Positions 38,870 to 47,891 of a stretch of DNA of 64,000 bases are shown here, one piece after another. The notes beneath the pieces were generated by a model. That model ran no database searches. It saw only the letters and a list, made by a program, of their open reading frames with translations, and had not been told where the DNA came from. Within the stretch, counting starts at the first letter, position 1; the number at the start of each line of letters is the position of its first letter. A program made the position numbers and the translations under genes. The DNA is from Streptomyces resistomycificus (GTDB lineage: Bacteria > Actinomycetota > Actinomycetes > Streptomycetales > Streptomycetaceae). The stretch covers positions 434,001 to 498,000 of the forward strand of contig NZ_KQ948989.1 of assembly GCF_001514265.1 (NCBI RefSeq), written 5' to 3'.

Positions 38870-38974
38870 TGAAGCCATCAAGCCACTCTTGTCAGTTACG
38901 CGTCAAGATGTCGGCGTGAGGCCGTGACCGAGGCCCAGGTGGGGGCGGGGGAGCCTTGCTCACCCGCCCCCACC

Positions 38975-41885
38975 TCACGCCAACGGGCGGGGGAACGTCC
39001 GCAACGCCGCCGCCAGGCCCGCCGCGTCGGTGCCGACCTTGCGGTAGGCGGCGGACAGCAGCTGCCGCACACCCTGCTCGGTGAGGCGCAGTTCCTTCGC
39101 GACCACCGCCACCGGATGCCCCTGGGCCGTCATCTCCGCCGCCCGGCGTTCGTGGGCGGTGAGGGTGTCCGTCTGGCCGTAGCGCAGGGGCAGCGGCCGC
39201 ATGCCGGCGGCGGAGAGTTCCTCCCTCGCCCGGGTGACCACCGACTCGGCGCCACAGTGCACGGCGGTCTCCAGGCCACGGTAGAGCCGGTCGGCGGCCT
39301 CCTGGAGCCGGTTGTGGCGGGACAGGGCGGCCCCGTGGCCGACCAGCGCCCGGGCCAGTTCGTAGGCGGCGGGCGACTGCTCCAGCTGTTCGACTGCCTG
39401 CGCGTGCAGGTCGAGCGCCGCCGGACCGCCGGTTACCTCGGCCTCGACGTGCAGTGCCTGGCCGATCACGGACGCCGCACCGAAGTCGCGGGCCCGCCTG
39501 ACGGCGTCCTGGGCCAGGCGGACCGCCCGGTCGGGGGCGGTGGGCGCGAGGGAGGAGGCGAGATCCAGCTGCCAGGAGCACCAGGAGGGATTGCGCCAGG
39601 CCCGGGTCTCCAGCTGGTCCCCGACCTCCAACAGGAGTACTTCCGCCTCGGCACGCCGGCCCTCCGCGAGGAGCAGTTCGGCGTACACCGTGCGCGGATC
39701 CGGGTAGATGACGGCGTTCGGGACGATCTCGCCGTAGTGGTACCGGTCGGCGAGCCGACGGGCGGCTGCGGCCCGCCCCCTGGCCAGCAGGATCTGGATG
39801 AGGATGCCGATGGCGAACCACTGGGCGGGTACCGCGCCCTCCACCCGGTCGGCGATGCGCAGACCCTCCCGCGCGAGTTCCTCCGCCTCGGCGAGGCAGC
39901 CGCGCCGGTAGCGGACGTAGCCCAGCAGGGCCTGGCCCAGGGCCAGATGGGAGCCGCGCCAGCCCTTGGTCTCGCACTCCGCCATGCCCTTGGTGAACAG
40001 TTCCTCGGCCCGTCGGGGCTGGTCGCAGTACATGAACACGAGAGCGACCGAGACCGGGATCTCGAAGCCCCGGTGCTCGTCGGTCCAGCTCATCCCCCCC
40101 GCGCAGGGCGTCGTCGGCACACGTGAGGACGGTCGGGCGGGGCTCGCCGCGCACCAGGGCGTCCCATGCGCGCAGGCCCAGGATGTAGCGCTCCTCCAAT
40201 CCGCGGCCGGTCAGCTTCGCGGCCAGCCGGGTGAGCTTGCGGGAGCGGGCGCAGGAGTCGGGTTCGTCGTTGCGGAACATGCTCCACACGAAGTGGTCGG
40301 CCTGCATGCGCAGTTTGATCCGGGGACTGCGGGCCTGCTGTGCCTCGTCGGCGGCCACCGAGGCGGCCTCGGCCATCCGGTCGGTGTGGGCCAGCGCCTG
40401 GGCGAGCCGATAGGCGATGGCGGCTCGCAGATCGGGGTCGACCCCGGGTTCGGCCAGCGCCTCACGGAGGTGGCTGACCGTGGCCGTGGGTTCGATCAGG
40501 AAGGTGGAGCAGGCGAGTTCGTGGAGGATGGCCGCGCGGTCCTCCGGAAGGGGCGGCTCCTGAAGCGCCCGGGTCAGCATGCGCCGGGCCGCCTCCGGTG
40601 CCCCGGCGCGCAGGTACTCACGGGCGGCGGCGCGCAGGCATTCGACCGCCTCGGGCCGCGAGTCGCAGGGGACTTCCAGGAGGTGCCGGGCGGCGGCCGT
40701 CGGGCCGAAGCCCGCGGCGCGGACGACCTCGGCGGCCGTGTTGTGCATGCCGACGCGCAGGTGCGTGGGCACGTCGTCGTAGATCGTCCTCCCGATCAGC
40801 GGGTGGGCGAACTCCAGGCCACAGCCCGGCCCTTGGCTTTCGGCCAGGATCCGCGCGGCGCGCAGCCGCTCGGTCGCCTGTACGGACTCCGCGGTGCCGA
40901 TGACCGCGATGTTCGCGGCGAGCTCCGGCGAGAAGGACCCGCCCAGTACGGCGGCGGCCCACGCGTAGCGGACGGTGGCCGGGCCGAGTCGGTGCAGACG
41001 CTCGATCAGCCCGGGGCCCTTGACGGCCGCCGCGAGGTCCCGCATGAGGGGCAACTCGTGCCGCATGCCCCGGACATGCCGTTCGGCGAGCCGGATGGCG
41101 AGTTCGACGGCCTCGAACGGACTCCCGCCGGTGGCGGTCCAGCACTCGTGACAGAACTCGTCCTCGGCCTCTTCCCCCACCTCGTTCCTGACGATCCGCG
41201 CGACACTGTCGGCGTTGAGCGGGGCCAGGGTGTGGGGGCGGTTGCCGTGGCGCTCGACGAGGGTGCGGAAGGCCTTCGCCTCCGGCGGCATGTCGTCGGG
41301 GCGGTAGGCGGCGACGATCAGCATCGGGAGGTCGGCGGCCCGTGGTGCGAAGGAGGCGAGCCAGCCCAGGGACTCGGCGTCGGCCCACTGCAGATCGTCC
41401 AGGAGCAGGACGAGCGGCGCCTTCTTCACCGCCAGGCGCGTCATCACCCAGTCGAGACCGTCGCGCACCCCGGTCGGGTCCGGCACATGGGAGGTGTCCT
41501 TGGCCTCCAGGCCGAGGGCGACCGCGACGATGTCGTACCAACTGCCCAGGAAGGTACGCAGTTCCGTCTCGTCCATCGCGGCCAGGGCGGGTTGCATCAG
41601 CTGGCGCACCACGCGGAACGCCAGCCCGTGCTCGTTCTCGGCACCCTTGCTCGACAGCACCGTGCAGCCCCGTGCGGCGGCGCGGGTCCGTGCCGCCGCG
41701 ACGAGGGTGGTCTTTCCCATGCCGGCCGGACCGGCGAAGGTGACGAGCTCACTGACCGGGGAGCGCGGTACCCCGCCGGCCGTCTCACAGAGCTCGGCCA
41801 GAGCCGAGTCGAGCGACTCGAGTTCCCGATGGCGTTCCAGCAACAGACGGTGTGGGGTGAAGGGTTCCCGCAGCCCAGGCGCCAT
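38975..41885 (-). pseudogene. Large ATPase-containing LuxR-family regulator, frameshifted
   Basis: A LAL-type regulator of about 970 residues split by a frameshift. The upstream part (41885 down to about 40100) begins MAPGLREPF and has an AAA/STAND domain with Walker A GPAGMGKTT and Walker B LVLLLDDLQWAD. The downstream part (about 40100 to 38975) gives TPR-like repeats and a C-terminal LuxR-type helix-turn-helix (LTAHERRAAEMTAQG...KELRLTEQGVRQLL). The frames join at seven Cs at 40094-40100 (seven Gs on the coding strand); removing one G restores ALRGGMSWTDEHRGF. It could be a recent inactivation, a phase-variable run, or a sequencing error. It lies between the CebR-controlled genes and the terpene cluster and might have regulated either. 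Confidence 0.85.
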
Positions 41886-42053: not shown

Positions 42054-43061
42054 TCACCGAGCGGCGGACGTCACCAAGGTGTCCGCGTAGCGCGGCACGG
42101 TGCGGGACCAGAAGTAGCACCCGCGGATCCAGCCGGCCATCCCCTCCACGTAGCCGGCGCCCGCAGGGCTCAACTGCGGCTTGATCTCGTCGTAGACCTC
42201 CTCGAACTCGCGGATCGTGCTGTTGATCAGACGGAGGGCGAGCATGACCCCGGCCGGCAGGGAACACCGCTCGGCGCGCTGGTAGGCGAGCGAGAGGTTG
42301 ATCAGCCCGCCCGCGCGTTGTTCCTTCACCGCGGAGAACAGGTCGGGGATCCACACCGCCGCGTCGGCGGACAGCCGTCCCAGACGCCGCATGAGCGGGT
42401 GATGCAGTTCGTCGGCGGTCAGCTCGCGGGGCTGGGCGGCCTCACACAGCGGATGGAAGGGCTCGACGCCGGCGATGAGCGACCGAATCGACTTGCACGT
42501 CCCGATCCGCAGGGGCACGGTGTCGGTCTGCGCCACCGCCTCGTACAGCAGCCCGTGCACGTACTCCCTGCTGTTGAACGCCCAACGCGCGGCCTGGGCG
42601 GGCGTGCAGCGTTCCCGGACCTGCCGGTGAAGGTCGTCGAGGGCGGCTCCCAGAAGGGTGCGCGGGGGCCGGCCGTCCCTGAGGATCTCGATGCTCTCGG
42701 TCAGCATGGGCAGCAGCCGGCCCGGCCAGTGGCGGCCGACCTCCTCCGCCCGGTCGTCGAAGACGAACTGGTAGGCGATCTGGTTGGCGACGATCTGGAG
42801 CAGCTCGGCATCCATGTCCGGGCTGTTGTAGGCCGCGAGTTCGGCGGGGCGGGTGGCGGTGATCATCGCCGACACGGTCGGGTCGTCGGTCAGCCGCCGG
42901 TCGCTCAGCCAGGTCACCATGCCCGCCGCCGCCTTGGCCGCGTGCTGGTTCTGCCGGAACGGGAAGGGCATGTAGAGGTGGGCGTCGATCAGATCCCTGA
43001 GGCTGCCGGGGCGGACCATGCCGCGCGGAACCGCGGTGATTTCCTCATGCGTCGTCGACAC
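42054..43061 (-). CDS. Class I terpene synthase with an altered NSE triad
   Basis: 335-residue bacterial terpene cyclase, expected to convert FPP or GPP to a cyclic hydrocarbon. The Asp-rich motif is FDDRAE (D102, D103, E106). Arg193 lies 46 residues before the second metal motif, the known place of the pyrophosphate sensor, and the C-terminal RY pair is Arg324-Tyr325. The NSE triad reads PDLFSAVKE (239-247): Ser243 and Glu247 are kept, but Pro239 replaces the Asn. That would remove one Mg2+ ligand, so activity may be altered or lost. GTG 43061 has AGGAG six bases upstream and overlaps the P450 gene by 17 nt, so the pair is coupled. Product not predictable. Confidence 0.88.
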   Translation of the reverse strand: MSTTHEEITAVPRGMVRPGSLRDLIDAHLYMPFPFRQNQHAAKAAAGMVTWLSDRRLTDDPTVSAMITATRPAELAAYNSPDMDAELLQIVANQIAYQFVFDDRAEEVGRHWPGRLLPMLTESIEILRDGRPPRTLLGAALDDLHRQVRERCTPAQAARWAFNSREYVHGLLYEAVAQTDTVPLRIGTCKSIRSLIAGVEPFHPLCEAAQPRELTADELHHPLMRRLGRLSADAAVWIPDLFSAVKEQRAGGLINLSLAYQRAERCSLPAGVMLALRLINSTIREFEEVYDEIKPQLSPAGAGYVEGMAGWIRGCYFWSRTVPRYADTLVTSAAR

Positions 43062-44798: not shown

Positions 44799-47795
44799 TC
44801 ATCGGGACGGAGCGTCCAGCCCGGCAGTGGAATCGGGATTCGGGTTGAACACCGGGTGGTAGCTCTCCGGCGGCGCGAGATAGGTGGCGGGCAGGCCGCC
44901 GGTGTCGACGACGATCTGGTCCACGGCGATCGCGGGGTCGACCATGAAGAGCCTCAGGACGTGCTCGCCGGGTTCGTCGACGGTCACGGTGGTGGTGAGC
45001 TTCTCGATGCCCTCCTCCACGTTCCGGGCCCAGGCGTCACCGCGGTTGCCGGTCGCGACGGACTGCCCGCTCAGCACGGAGACCGGCTGGTCGTCGAGAC
45101 CGACAGCGATCCGCCGGTGACCGCGCTCGTCGAGGGAGGGCAGCCGGAACACGGTGACCGGGAAGACCCCGGCACTCGCGAAGCGAACCCGGTAGCGCAA
45201 CTCCGGTGCCCGCGCGGCGAAGTCGCCGGTGACCGGCGCGGCCGTGGACGGCACCGCCTCCACCGCGGCGCTACGACGGCCGAGCCCCCGCACGGTCCGC
45301 CAGCGGGATCCGCCCCGCGTCACCCGGCGTTCGAAGTGCACGGCGTCGATCGACACGTACCCGTTCGCCTCGACGAACCCGCGGGCCCGCCGACGTGCCC
45401 GATCCCCGTCGTTGACCACCTTGAGGGGCACCTCGACCCGCTGCCCGGCGCCGGTGACGACGACGGTGGACTCCTGGGCGCCCAGGGGAGCGCGCGACCA
45501 GTCGATCTCCACCCACACCCGGGTCTGTTCGCTGACCGAGCCGCCCGTCGCACTCAGCAGGACCCACGGGTGACCGGCCTCGGCCGCCCAGTCCACGCTC
45601 AGGAAACCGGTGTTGAAGACATCCAGGAAGCGGCGGTCGCGAGTGTAGGAGGAGAAGGACAGCGGCCGGCCCGCCCCCGTCTCGTTCCCTTCCGCCGCCA
45701 CCCCGAGTCCCGAGGTCTCCTGCCGGGGGACCCTGGTGACGGTCGGCCGGCCCGGCGCCTTCGGGATCTGGGAGGGGTACGGGTTGACGATCCCGTCCCA
45801 CTTCCCGCCCGCCACCTCGGTGTTGTACCGCTTGGTGATCGCCGCCTCCTCGGCGTGGGCGGCCTCGGCCAGGTCCGCGAAGCGGTTCGCGCCGGCCCCG
45901 CGCCCCTGCCGGACGGCGAGCGCGTTGCGGTCCGCCCAGTAGTACTTCACGTTCATCAGGTACGCGCCGTACACCGGATATTCGACGAGCTCGTAGAACG
46001 CGTCCCGGTAGGCCTCGGGCAGCTCGGCGCCCAGACCTCGGACCCGTTCCAGCAGCCGGCCGTAGGCGGCCATCCGGCGCCCGGCCTCGTCACCGTGGTG
46101 GACGACGGAGAACATCCCGCGGTCGATGAACTCCGGTCTGCGCTCGGCCGCGAGCCGGTAGTACTCCGTACGGATCGCCGCGATCTCCGGTCCGTGGCGC
46201 CGCCCGAACTGCCGCCCGGCCCACTCGGCGACGAAGTCCTCGACGTCGTCCTCGCCGTCGGCGTTCCAGCGGTCCACGTCCCAGGCCATGTCCAGGGAGA
46301 AGGACAGGCCGGTCTCGATCGACTTGACGTCACCGACGTTGAAGATCCACATCCGGTCGGCGCCGTGTTCGTACACCCGGCGCAGCTCCTGCCAGACCTT
46401 GGACAACTGGGTGGTGTCCAGCCACAGGTAGCTGCGCGGCCGGCCCCAGTAGGACAGGTGGTAGTAGATGCCGTTGCCGCCCGCCCGCACCCGCTCCGCG
46501 TCGTCCGGCAGCTGACGCATGTTGCCGTGGTTGTCGTCCGGCCAGATCAGCGTGACGTCGTCGGGGACCTGTACGCCCGCGTTGTACAGGTCCAGCACCT
46601 CCTTGTACGGGATGAAGATCTGCGGCTCGGCCCCCGCGGTGACCTCCTCGGCGAGGATCCTGCGCTGGTCCGCGATGATGTTGTTCATCACCACGACCTT
46701 CTCCGGAATGGTCGTGGCGTGCTTCGTCTCCAGCGCGCTGTCGTGCAGCCCGCGCATTCCCAGCGTCCAACTGCTCTCGTACGAGGCGTTCTGCCGCGCT
46801 CTGGCGCGCCAGTAGTCGGAGATGACGCCGGGGTTGACCGTGTAGTCGTACACCGGCAGGGCGCCGTCCGGTCCGGGGTGCTCCTTCGCCCACGGATCCC
46901 ACTCGTGGACGCCGTTGCGCAGCAGGGCCTCGGGATGGCTCGATCCGACGACTATGCCGTAGCGGTCGGCGAGTTCCGGGTTCTCGCGGTGCTTGTTGAA
47001 GAAGTCGGAGTAGGGATGCATGGCAGGCCAGAGGTAGTTGGCCCGCAGGCGCAACAGCAGTTCGAACACGCGCTTGTAGGTCTCCGGGCCGATGTTCTTG
47101 TCCGGCTCCTGCTTGCGGCGCGACCACGTGGTCAGGTTCTGCTCGTCGTTGATGAAGATGCCCCGGTAACGGACGGACGGTTCACGCCGCTTGACCGCTC
47201 CCGACGGCACCGACACCGTCTCCCGGCGCACGACGGGCACGTCGGCCCACCAGTACCAGGGCGAGACCCCGATACGCTCCGAGGTGTCGTACACGCCGTA
47301 GACCGTGCCGCGCCGGTCGCTGCCCGCGATCACCAGGGCGCGGTCCACGCCGGGTACGGGTCGCTCCACCACCTGGGTCACCGAGGCCTCCCAGCGGCCC
47401 TTTACTCCGGACACGTCCAGGCGCCGCTCCGCGACGAGCCGGTCGATGACCGGGCTGGCGCCGATCGTGCCCACCAGCACCAGGTGTGCCGCCCGTTCGG
47501 GGAGGGTGTGCAACAGTCGCGGCCGTACGCCGCCGACCCGTTCGACGTCCGCCGGCAGGTCCCCGGCGGCGCGGACCACGGCCGGGTCGTCCGACGGGTC
47601 CACGAACACGTCGACGGCGGAGCCGTCCCGGACGAGGGGGAACGCCGGCCGGTCGGAGGGGGCGGCCTCGGCGGCCGGGGCCGTCGCGGCAATCACCCCC
47701 GGGAGCAACGGGGCGGCCCCTACGGCCGCCATTCCGCGCAGGAACGACTTGCGGGTCCATGGCTGCGACGGGCCCTGCGGTTCGTTGTGGGGCAC
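44799..47795 (-). CDS. GH115 xylan alpha-1,2-glucuronidase
   Basis: 998-residue secreted glycoside hydrolase family 115 enzyme, which removes (methyl)glucuronic acid from polymeric xylan. The N-terminus has a Tat-like signal (TRKSFLRGMAAVGAA; Arg-Lys rather than Arg-Arg). GH115 blocks include GIFINDEQNLTTWS, NYLWPAMHPYSDFFN, NPGVISDYWRARA, IWPDDNHGN and RMWIFNVGDVKS, and the C-terminal beta domain closes the dimeric fold. Length is normal. GTG 47795 follows AAGGAA by seven bases; GTG 47822 lacks a site. A LacI-type operator lies about 97 bp upstream. It complements the mannanase and esterase in hemicellulose use, and released glucuronate could feed sugar-acid pathways. Confidence 0.92.
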   Translation of the reverse strand: MPHNEPQGPSQPWTRKSFLRGMAAVGAAPLLPGVIAATAPAAEAAPSDRPAFPLVRDGSAVDVFVDPSDDPAVVRAAGDLPADVERVGGVRPRLLHTLPERAAHLVLVGTIGASPVIDRLVAERRLDVSGVKGRWEASVTQVVERPVPGVDRALVIAGSDRRGTVYGVYDTSERIGVSPWYWWADVPVVRRETVSVPSGAVKRREPSVRYRGIFINDEQNLTTWSRRKQEPDKNIGPETYKRVFELLLRLRANYLWPAMHPYSDFFNKHRENPELADRYGIVVGSSHPEALLRNGVHEWDPWAKEHPGPDGALPVYDYTVNPGVISDYWRARARQNASYESSWTLGMRGLHDSALETKHATTIPEKVVVMNNIIADQRRILAEEVTAGAEPQIFIPYKEVLDLYNAGVQVPDDVTLIWPDDNHGNMRQLPDDAERVRAGGNGIYYHLSYWGRPRSYLWLDTTQLSKVWQELRRVYEHGADRMWIFNVGDVKSIETGLSFSLDMAWDVDRWNADGEDDVEDFVAEWAGRQFGRRHGPEIAAIRTEYYRLAAERRPEFIDRGMFSVVHHGDEAGRRMAAYGRLLERVRGLGAELPEAYRDAFYELVEYPVYGAYLMNVKYYWADRNALAVRQGRGAGANRFADLAEAAHAEEAAITKRYNTEVAGGKWDGIVNPYPSQIPKAPGRPTVTRVPRQETSGLGVAAEGNETGAGRPLSFSSYTRDRRFLDVFNTGFLSVDWAAEAGHPWVLLSATGGSVSEQTRVWVEIDWSRAPLGAQESTVVVTGAGQRVEVPLKVVNDGDRARRRARGFVEANGYVSIDAVHFERRVTRGGSRWRTVRGLGRRSAAVEAVPSTAAPVTGDFAARAPELRYRVRFASAGVFPVTVFRLPSLDERGHRRIAVGLDDQPVSVLSGQSVATGNRGDAWARNVEEGIEKLTTTVTVDEPGEHVLRLFMVDPAIAVDQIVVDTGGLPATYLAPPESYHPVFNPNPDSTAGLDAPSR

Positions 47796-47891
47796 GAGAC
47801 GCTTCCTTTCCGCGCCGGGCACCCGAGGCGGCCCCTCGTGCGGACCGTCCGGCGGGGCTGAGCGCGTGGGGCGGGTGGCGTGAGCAGGCTA

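Follow-up and report, generated by a model that had tools for sequence, protein, structure and literature searches.

A (-)-alpha-amorphene synthase homologue of Streptomyces resistomycificus with proline in place of the NSE asparagine, and its P450 neighbour

Introduction

According to the available text of Rabe, Schmitz and Dickschat (2016; PMC5082573), the recombinant (-)-alpha-amorphene synthase of Streptomyces viridochromogenes DSM 40736 (WP_039931950) converts FPP to (-)-alpha-amorphene as a single product, and yields no product from GPP or GGPP. Its NSE motif is given there as 242-PDLFSAVKE, and more than 40 homologues are described, all with Pro or Ala at the first position. The available portion of a review (PMC10301674) also names an alpha-amorphene-forming synthase from S. 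chartreusis NRRL 3882. In the accessible sections of PMC6604706, alpha-amorphene synthases count among ten major Streptomyces types and are one of the least abundant, with 6 species in the complete-genome set of that study.

The metal site to which the first NSE residue belongs is described for CotB2 in excerpts of PMC6808215. There, Mg2+B is bound by N220, S224 and E228, the Asn, Ser and Glu of the NSE motif; two waters on Mg2+B are swapped for diphosphate oxygens, and the tyrosine of the RY pair hydrogen-bonds the NSE Asn. For selinadiene synthase, excerpts of PMC8450962 describe an NSE Asp bonded by the sensor Arg. The same excerpts place an Asn eight or nine residues after the NSE Glu, which it supports in such enzymes. 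Here we analyze a homologue of the amorphene synthase in a window of 64,000 nucleotides from S. resistomycificus (contig NZ_KQ948989.1, positions 434,001 to 498,000). All coordinates below are those of the window.

Results

The synthase gene lies at 42054..43061 on the minus strand and encodes 335 aa from a GTG start, with AGGAG six bases 5' of this start at the junction with the P450 gene. Translation of the open reading frame reads codon CCC at 42345..42347 (minus) as Pro239, which replaces Asn, the first metal ligand of the NSE motif. The motif, PDLFSAVKE (residues 239-247; 42321..42347, minus), therefore departs from a complete NDxxSxxxE by Pro239 for Asn, with Ser243 and Glu247 present. 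The remaining class I features were all found: an aspartate-rich DDxx(D/E) motif, DDRAE (residues 102-106; 42744..42758, minus), the pyrophosphate-sensor Arg193, 46 residues before position 239 (42483..42485, minus), and the C-terminal RY pair (residues 324-325; 42087..42092, minus). The first-pass annotation had read proline at the NSE asparagine, the other landmarks as intact, and a P450 gene as linked to the synthase; all three readings were borne out.

Next, we assigned the synthase to a family. It scored 76 bits against the class I family Pfam PF19086 (Terpene_syn_C_2; cut-off 23.7), and 614.9 bits against the NCBIfam (-)-alpha-amorphene synthase equivalog NF041563 (amorph_syn), above the cut-off of 540. 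The runner-up NCBIfam model, isoafricanol synthase, reached 86.8 bits against a cut-off of 500. Assignment to another known synthase type was rejected, as the next-best NCBIfam models fell far under their own cut-offs. Pro239 also agrees with the Pro or Ala that opens the NSE motif in this family according to the consulted part of PMC5082573. The window synthase shares 75% identity with its S. viridochromogenes DSM 40736 homologue (L108). In L108 the motifs start at positions 102 and 239, each 3 lower than the 105 and 242 printed in the accessible text of PMC5082573, which is consistent with a different start codon. The window enzyme very probably makes the sesquiterpene alpha-amorphene, as judged from sequence, but at only 75% identity to the characterised enzyme it could yield a related yet different product.

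To follow residue 239, homologous loci were collected from three sources. The first gave 41 strong matches, for which 30 loci were obtained; the second gave 52 matches and 30 loci, 7 of them duplicates of loci already in the set; and in the third, 85 relatives were found, of which the best 80 (64-77% identity) led to 79 named loci, every one with a title from Streptomyces. Many loci of the first two sources share genomes with the third, so the 132 fetched loci represent 103 distinct proteins, with a mean pairwise identity of 73% (sample of 1000 pairs). Among 391 genomes drawn from the order, 52 matched at E <= 1e-40, all from a single genus of the ten sampled.

Across the 103 distinct homologues from the fetched loci, which are the matches that the counts cover, position 239 was Pro in 81 and Ala in 22, with Asn and any other residue in none. 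The codons were CCC (70), CCG (11), GCC (20), GCT (1) and GCG (1); Pro and Ala are therefore a single base apart, and the codon varies synonymously. The base-calling error that the first-pass annotation had allowed for at this codon is very unlikely, given Pro in 81 of the homologues. Its suggestion of a new active-site variant did not hold: the Pro239 variant and the activity of an enzyme that bears it were already published in 2016, as the available text of PMC5082573 states, and the trait is family-wide. Nor does the product have to be left blank, as it had been there, with the single FPP product of a homologue in the same text and the NF041563 cut-off passed. A variant peculiar to one strain or new to science was likewise rejected on that text, the 103 homologues and the tree described below.

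The other residues of the metal and diphosphate motifs were constant. Residues D102, D103, E106, R193, D240, L241, S243, K246, E247, R324 and Y325 were invariant in 103 of 103 proteins. At the anchor positions given in the consulted excerpts of PMC8450962, L88, R159, E207, N255 and W318 were also invariant, and position 81 was Pro in 100. Every partner of the site other than the lost Asn (D240, S243, E247, N255, R193 and Y325) was therefore retained throughout the family. Two glutamines in the helix before DDRAE, Gln94 and Gln98 (residues 94-98; 42768-42782, minus), were invariant as well, while none of 19 outgroup synthases had Gln at either position; as sequence conservation goes, they are candidates for a family-specific active-site role.

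Two loci stood out in copy number. In one genome with a full family member, a short match (G281:C60:2361-2555; 51% identity) covers residues 1-65 only and is perhaps the remnant of a second copy. On contig NZ_BBZJ01000015.1 of Streptomyces sp. TP-A0356, two family members (L051 and L078) lie about 208 kb apart, each with a P450 gene; this pair is either a duplication or a second acquisition.

To place the substitution among other synthases, we compared a hand-picked set of 148 synthase domains. Asn occupied the first NSE position in 144 of them; Pro occurred once (the window gene), Gln once, and two domains, both from L184, were unscored, in a set that is rich in geosmin-type synthases and biased, and so gives no frequency estimate. 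The set comprised 20 outgroups, loci from the genome of the window, and loci from a class-wide Pfam search together with 65 of its listed matches. A domain was obtained at 115 of the 118 loci, the exceptions being L247, L249 and L250; for proteins with two domains the second was mostly excluded, as were two known family members (G133:C21 and G067:C1:8913810). The Gln-bearing synthase (L216; G218:C1:8354180-8355964), from the same genus, has the motif QDAFSVAKE, a substitution distinct from that of the Pro/Ala family. Besides the window gene, the genome itself has three PF19086 matches in two open frames; one frame carries the motifs NDLFS and NDVFS, the second NDLCS. Profile placement found Asn in all 20 of the nearest non-family synthases fetched (L133-L152).

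In a tree with 19 outgroups, one branch with support 100 separated Asn from Pro/Ala, on a quick tree with long outgroup branches where supports are less reliable. The outgroup filter had demanded an ND motif, so Asn in all 19 is circular, and the 20 of 20 placed by profile is the unbiased count; the filter dropped L151, whose motif ends in Asp rather than Glu, and L155 from the tree, and both have Asn. On this tree Ala was gained or lost 6 times, each time forced by starred branches. A family-only tree, built without residues 237-241, required 8 changes between Pro and Ala and contained 5 independent pairs on its starred, well-supported branches. The Pro-bearing window protein is sister to a group of three Ala-bearing proteins. 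Asn was thus lost once, in the family ancestor, and Pro and Ala later replaced each other several times. This repeated interchange indicates that what is retained is a small non-coordinating residue, and not proline as such.

The P450 gene (43045..44523, minus; 492 aa; Pfam PF00067, 217.6 bits) lies upstream of the synthase on the same strand and overlaps it by 17 nt. A relative of this P450 was found upstream, on the same strand, in all 132 family loci. In 110 of the 132, the end of the P450 gene and the start of the synthase share exactly 17 nt, and the spacing is between -17 and +113 nt in 131 of them, distances that depend on start codons chosen by script; the value at L090 (-1017) is uninterpretable, as the P450 frame there continues past the synthase start. 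The window P450 scored 410.2 bits against the albaflavenone monooxygenase model NF051859 (cut-off 700) and 386.9 bits against the pentalenene oxygenase model NF045812 (cut-off 800). Being under both equivalog cut-offs, it probably acts on another substrate. Its best sequence match among solved structures was PDB 3dbg (E 6.7e-86), which we take to be the albaflavenone P450 CYP170A1.

Downstream of the synthase lies a regulator-like gene with an N-terminal AAA_16 ATPase domain (38892..41885, minus), whose C-terminal part is in the open reading frame 38975-40120. Its reading frame is broken around position 40100, and the two parts are in different frames. Among the 79 named relatives, the N-terminal part was found in 76 and the C-terminal part in 74, with the gene downstream on the same strand in 76. 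A single open frame runs through both parts in 70 of the 74 named relatives that have both. The broken frame in the window is either a pseudogene or an assembly error, with intact copies in other genomes. That P450, synthase and regulator are conserved together speaks for an oxidised amorphene as the end product, and the P450 probably acts by oxidising the amorphene that the synthase makes, a role that we infer. In the titles and abstract starts of the open-licence literature, no paper on an amorphene-linked P450 stood out. A gene for a GH115 glycosyl hydrolase (44799-47822, minus) lies immediately upstream of the P450. It had a match at 16 of the 79 named loci, a possible undercount with flanks of at most 6 kb, and is on this count probably outside the P450-synthase unit.

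An AlphaFold2 model of the synthase (56 rows; pLDDT 87.7) places residue 239 inside a predicted helix, 222-242. Its 50 best fold matches, with Z from 33 to 37, are terpene synthases by fold or title, and several of them are complexes with Mg2+ and diphosphate or analogues. No solved structure of the amorphene synthase family was found by sequence or among these 50 fold matches.

Discussion

We regard it as highly likely that the window gene is a working (-)-alpha-amorphene synthase like that of S. viridochromogenes, with Mg2+B most likely kept by Ser243, Glu247, diphosphate and water, and with a P450 that probably oxidises the product. FPP would be ionised by the ordinary class I apparatus: the aspartate-rich motif would serve Mg2+A and Mg2+C, Ser243 and Glu247 would hold Mg2+B, and Arg193 and the RY pair would bind the diphosphate. 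The Asn would have given way to Pro or Ala, a small residue unable to coordinate metal. Mg2+B would most likely stay in its usual place, where Ser243, Glu247 and oxygens of the diphosphate would bind it and a water would fill the vacant position; the residues expected to support the site, Asp240, Asn255, Arg193 and Tyr325, are all kept. The simplest reading may then be a normal three-metal enzyme, in which Mg2+B would rest on two protein ligands, the diphosphate and a water that would act as the replacement ligand.

Pentalenene synthase mutants at the NSE asparagine are inactive or poor. A search of the open-licence literature for mutants at this position turned up just mentions, of residue N219 of pentalenene synthase (in docking) and of trichodiene synthase N225D (in a list of activity-changing substitutions); PMC7383580 describes its motifs as conserved. 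An incomplete NSE motif is by itself no argument against class I function, since a Pro-bearing homologue is active in print.

The reading that survives best beside this one is that the metal site has been rebuilt. Were water simply to occupy the vacancy, one would not expect residue 239 to be confined so strictly to Pro and Ala among 103 proteins. In this proposal, which we think unlikely, another family-specific side chain replaces Asn at Mg2+B, or orders a water there; the invariance of Gln94 and Gln98, and the lack of Gln at these positions in the outgroups, speak in its favor. The site would have two interchangeable local solutions, namely Ile238-Pro239, mostly with Cys206, and Thr238-Ala239 with Tyr206. 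Residues 238-239 were Ile-Pro in 81 of the 103 proteins, Thr-Ala in 17 and Ile-Ala in 5. Tyr206 accompanied Thr238-Ala239 in 17 of 17 proteins but Ile238-Pro239 in only 2 of 81, and Cys206 accompanied the latter in 68 of 81. In the 5 independent pairs on well-supported branches that differ at 239, residue 238 changed in the same direction in 4; for residue 206 this held in 3 or 4, according to how the pairs were drawn. However, a sign test on these pairs gave a median p of 0.125, with significance out of reach at this number, and the five Ala-bearing proteins with Ile238 and Cys206 imply that the coupling is not obligatory. The covariation of 239 with 238 and 206 is a hint that the local structure was remodelled and that the site is more than simply vacant. 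Taken for the whole clade, the proposal would be that a ligand of Mg2+B was lost once and was not regained in the proteins read, and that the site was rebuilt, as Ile238-Pro239 or as Tyr206-Thr238-Ala239, in a holding mode unseen in solved synthases; we consider this doubtful.

A more distant alternative is that catalysis relies on two metals, or on another metal, e.g., Mn2+, and that Mg2+B is weak or absent. The loss of one of the three Mg2+B ligands, with Asn in 0 of 103 proteins, is compatible with weaker binding. However, Ser243 and Glu247, which have the Mg2+B role in the excerpts of PMC6808215, and Asn255, which corresponds to the support of the Glu in those of PMC8450962, are invariant, and this is unexpected for an unused site; we therefore deem the alternative very improbable. 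A decaying or inactive synthase, or a sequencing error at codon 239, can be dismissed almost entirely, in line with the first-pass annotation's view that decay was unlikely: nothing beyond the substitution itself speaks for it, whereas the frame is open, the remaining motifs are intact, Pro or Ala with synonymous codon variation occurs in 103 of 103 homologues, and a Pro-bearing homologue is active according to the available text of PMC5082573.

The family offers a natural setting in which to test how many ligands from the protein are required at the third magnesium of terpene synthases. This large family, linked to a P450 and with one member proven active, does without a textbook catalytic residue, and its Pro and Ala versions, which arose several times, are ready for comparison. 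The variant and its interpretation have been known since 2016 and are extended here to 103 distinct homologues (Pro 81, Ala 22, Asn 0). The remaining interest is structural, i.e., how the third magnesium is held. The conserved P450 partner also suggests undiscovered oxidised amorphenes in Streptomyces.

The (-)-alpha-amorphene synthase of S. viridochromogenes DSM 40736 belongs to the same family as the window synthase by both the equivalog model and the tree. As far as the available text on it goes, it shares PDLFSAVKE, DDRAE, the sensor Arg and the RY pair, and its locus likewise has a P450 gene directly upstream. At 75% identity, the two differ in that the product is known for the DSM 40736 enzyme and inferred for the window one. 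The window P450, in turn, resembles the albaflavenone P450 (CYP170A1) and pentalenene oxygenase, but matches both NCBIfam models below their cut-offs.

Among the 50 best fold matches, the closest to the predicted model were the 1-epi-cubenol synthase of Nonomuraea coxensis and the T-muurolol synthase of Roseiflexus castenholzii (PDB 9hqa, 9hqb, 9hqz, 9hqi), with Z of about 37, 23-28% identity and an rmsd of 1.8-2.7 Å over about 300 residues. These are class I bacterial sesquiterpene synthases too, but with other products. The R. castenholzii enzyme has the motif NDVLSYPKE in the accessible part of PMC5082573, with Asn, unlike Pro239 of the window enzyme. Natural active enzymes with a replaced motif residue, as here, are described in the available excerpts of PMC8450962: SmTS1 (sestermobaraene synthase) and spiroalbatene synthase. 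Their changes lie elsewhere. SmTS1 has the aspartate-rich motif NDLTV and the NSE motif NQRYSYFKE and lacks the sensor Arg, whereas in spiroalbatene synthase the NSE Ser is replaced by Gly.
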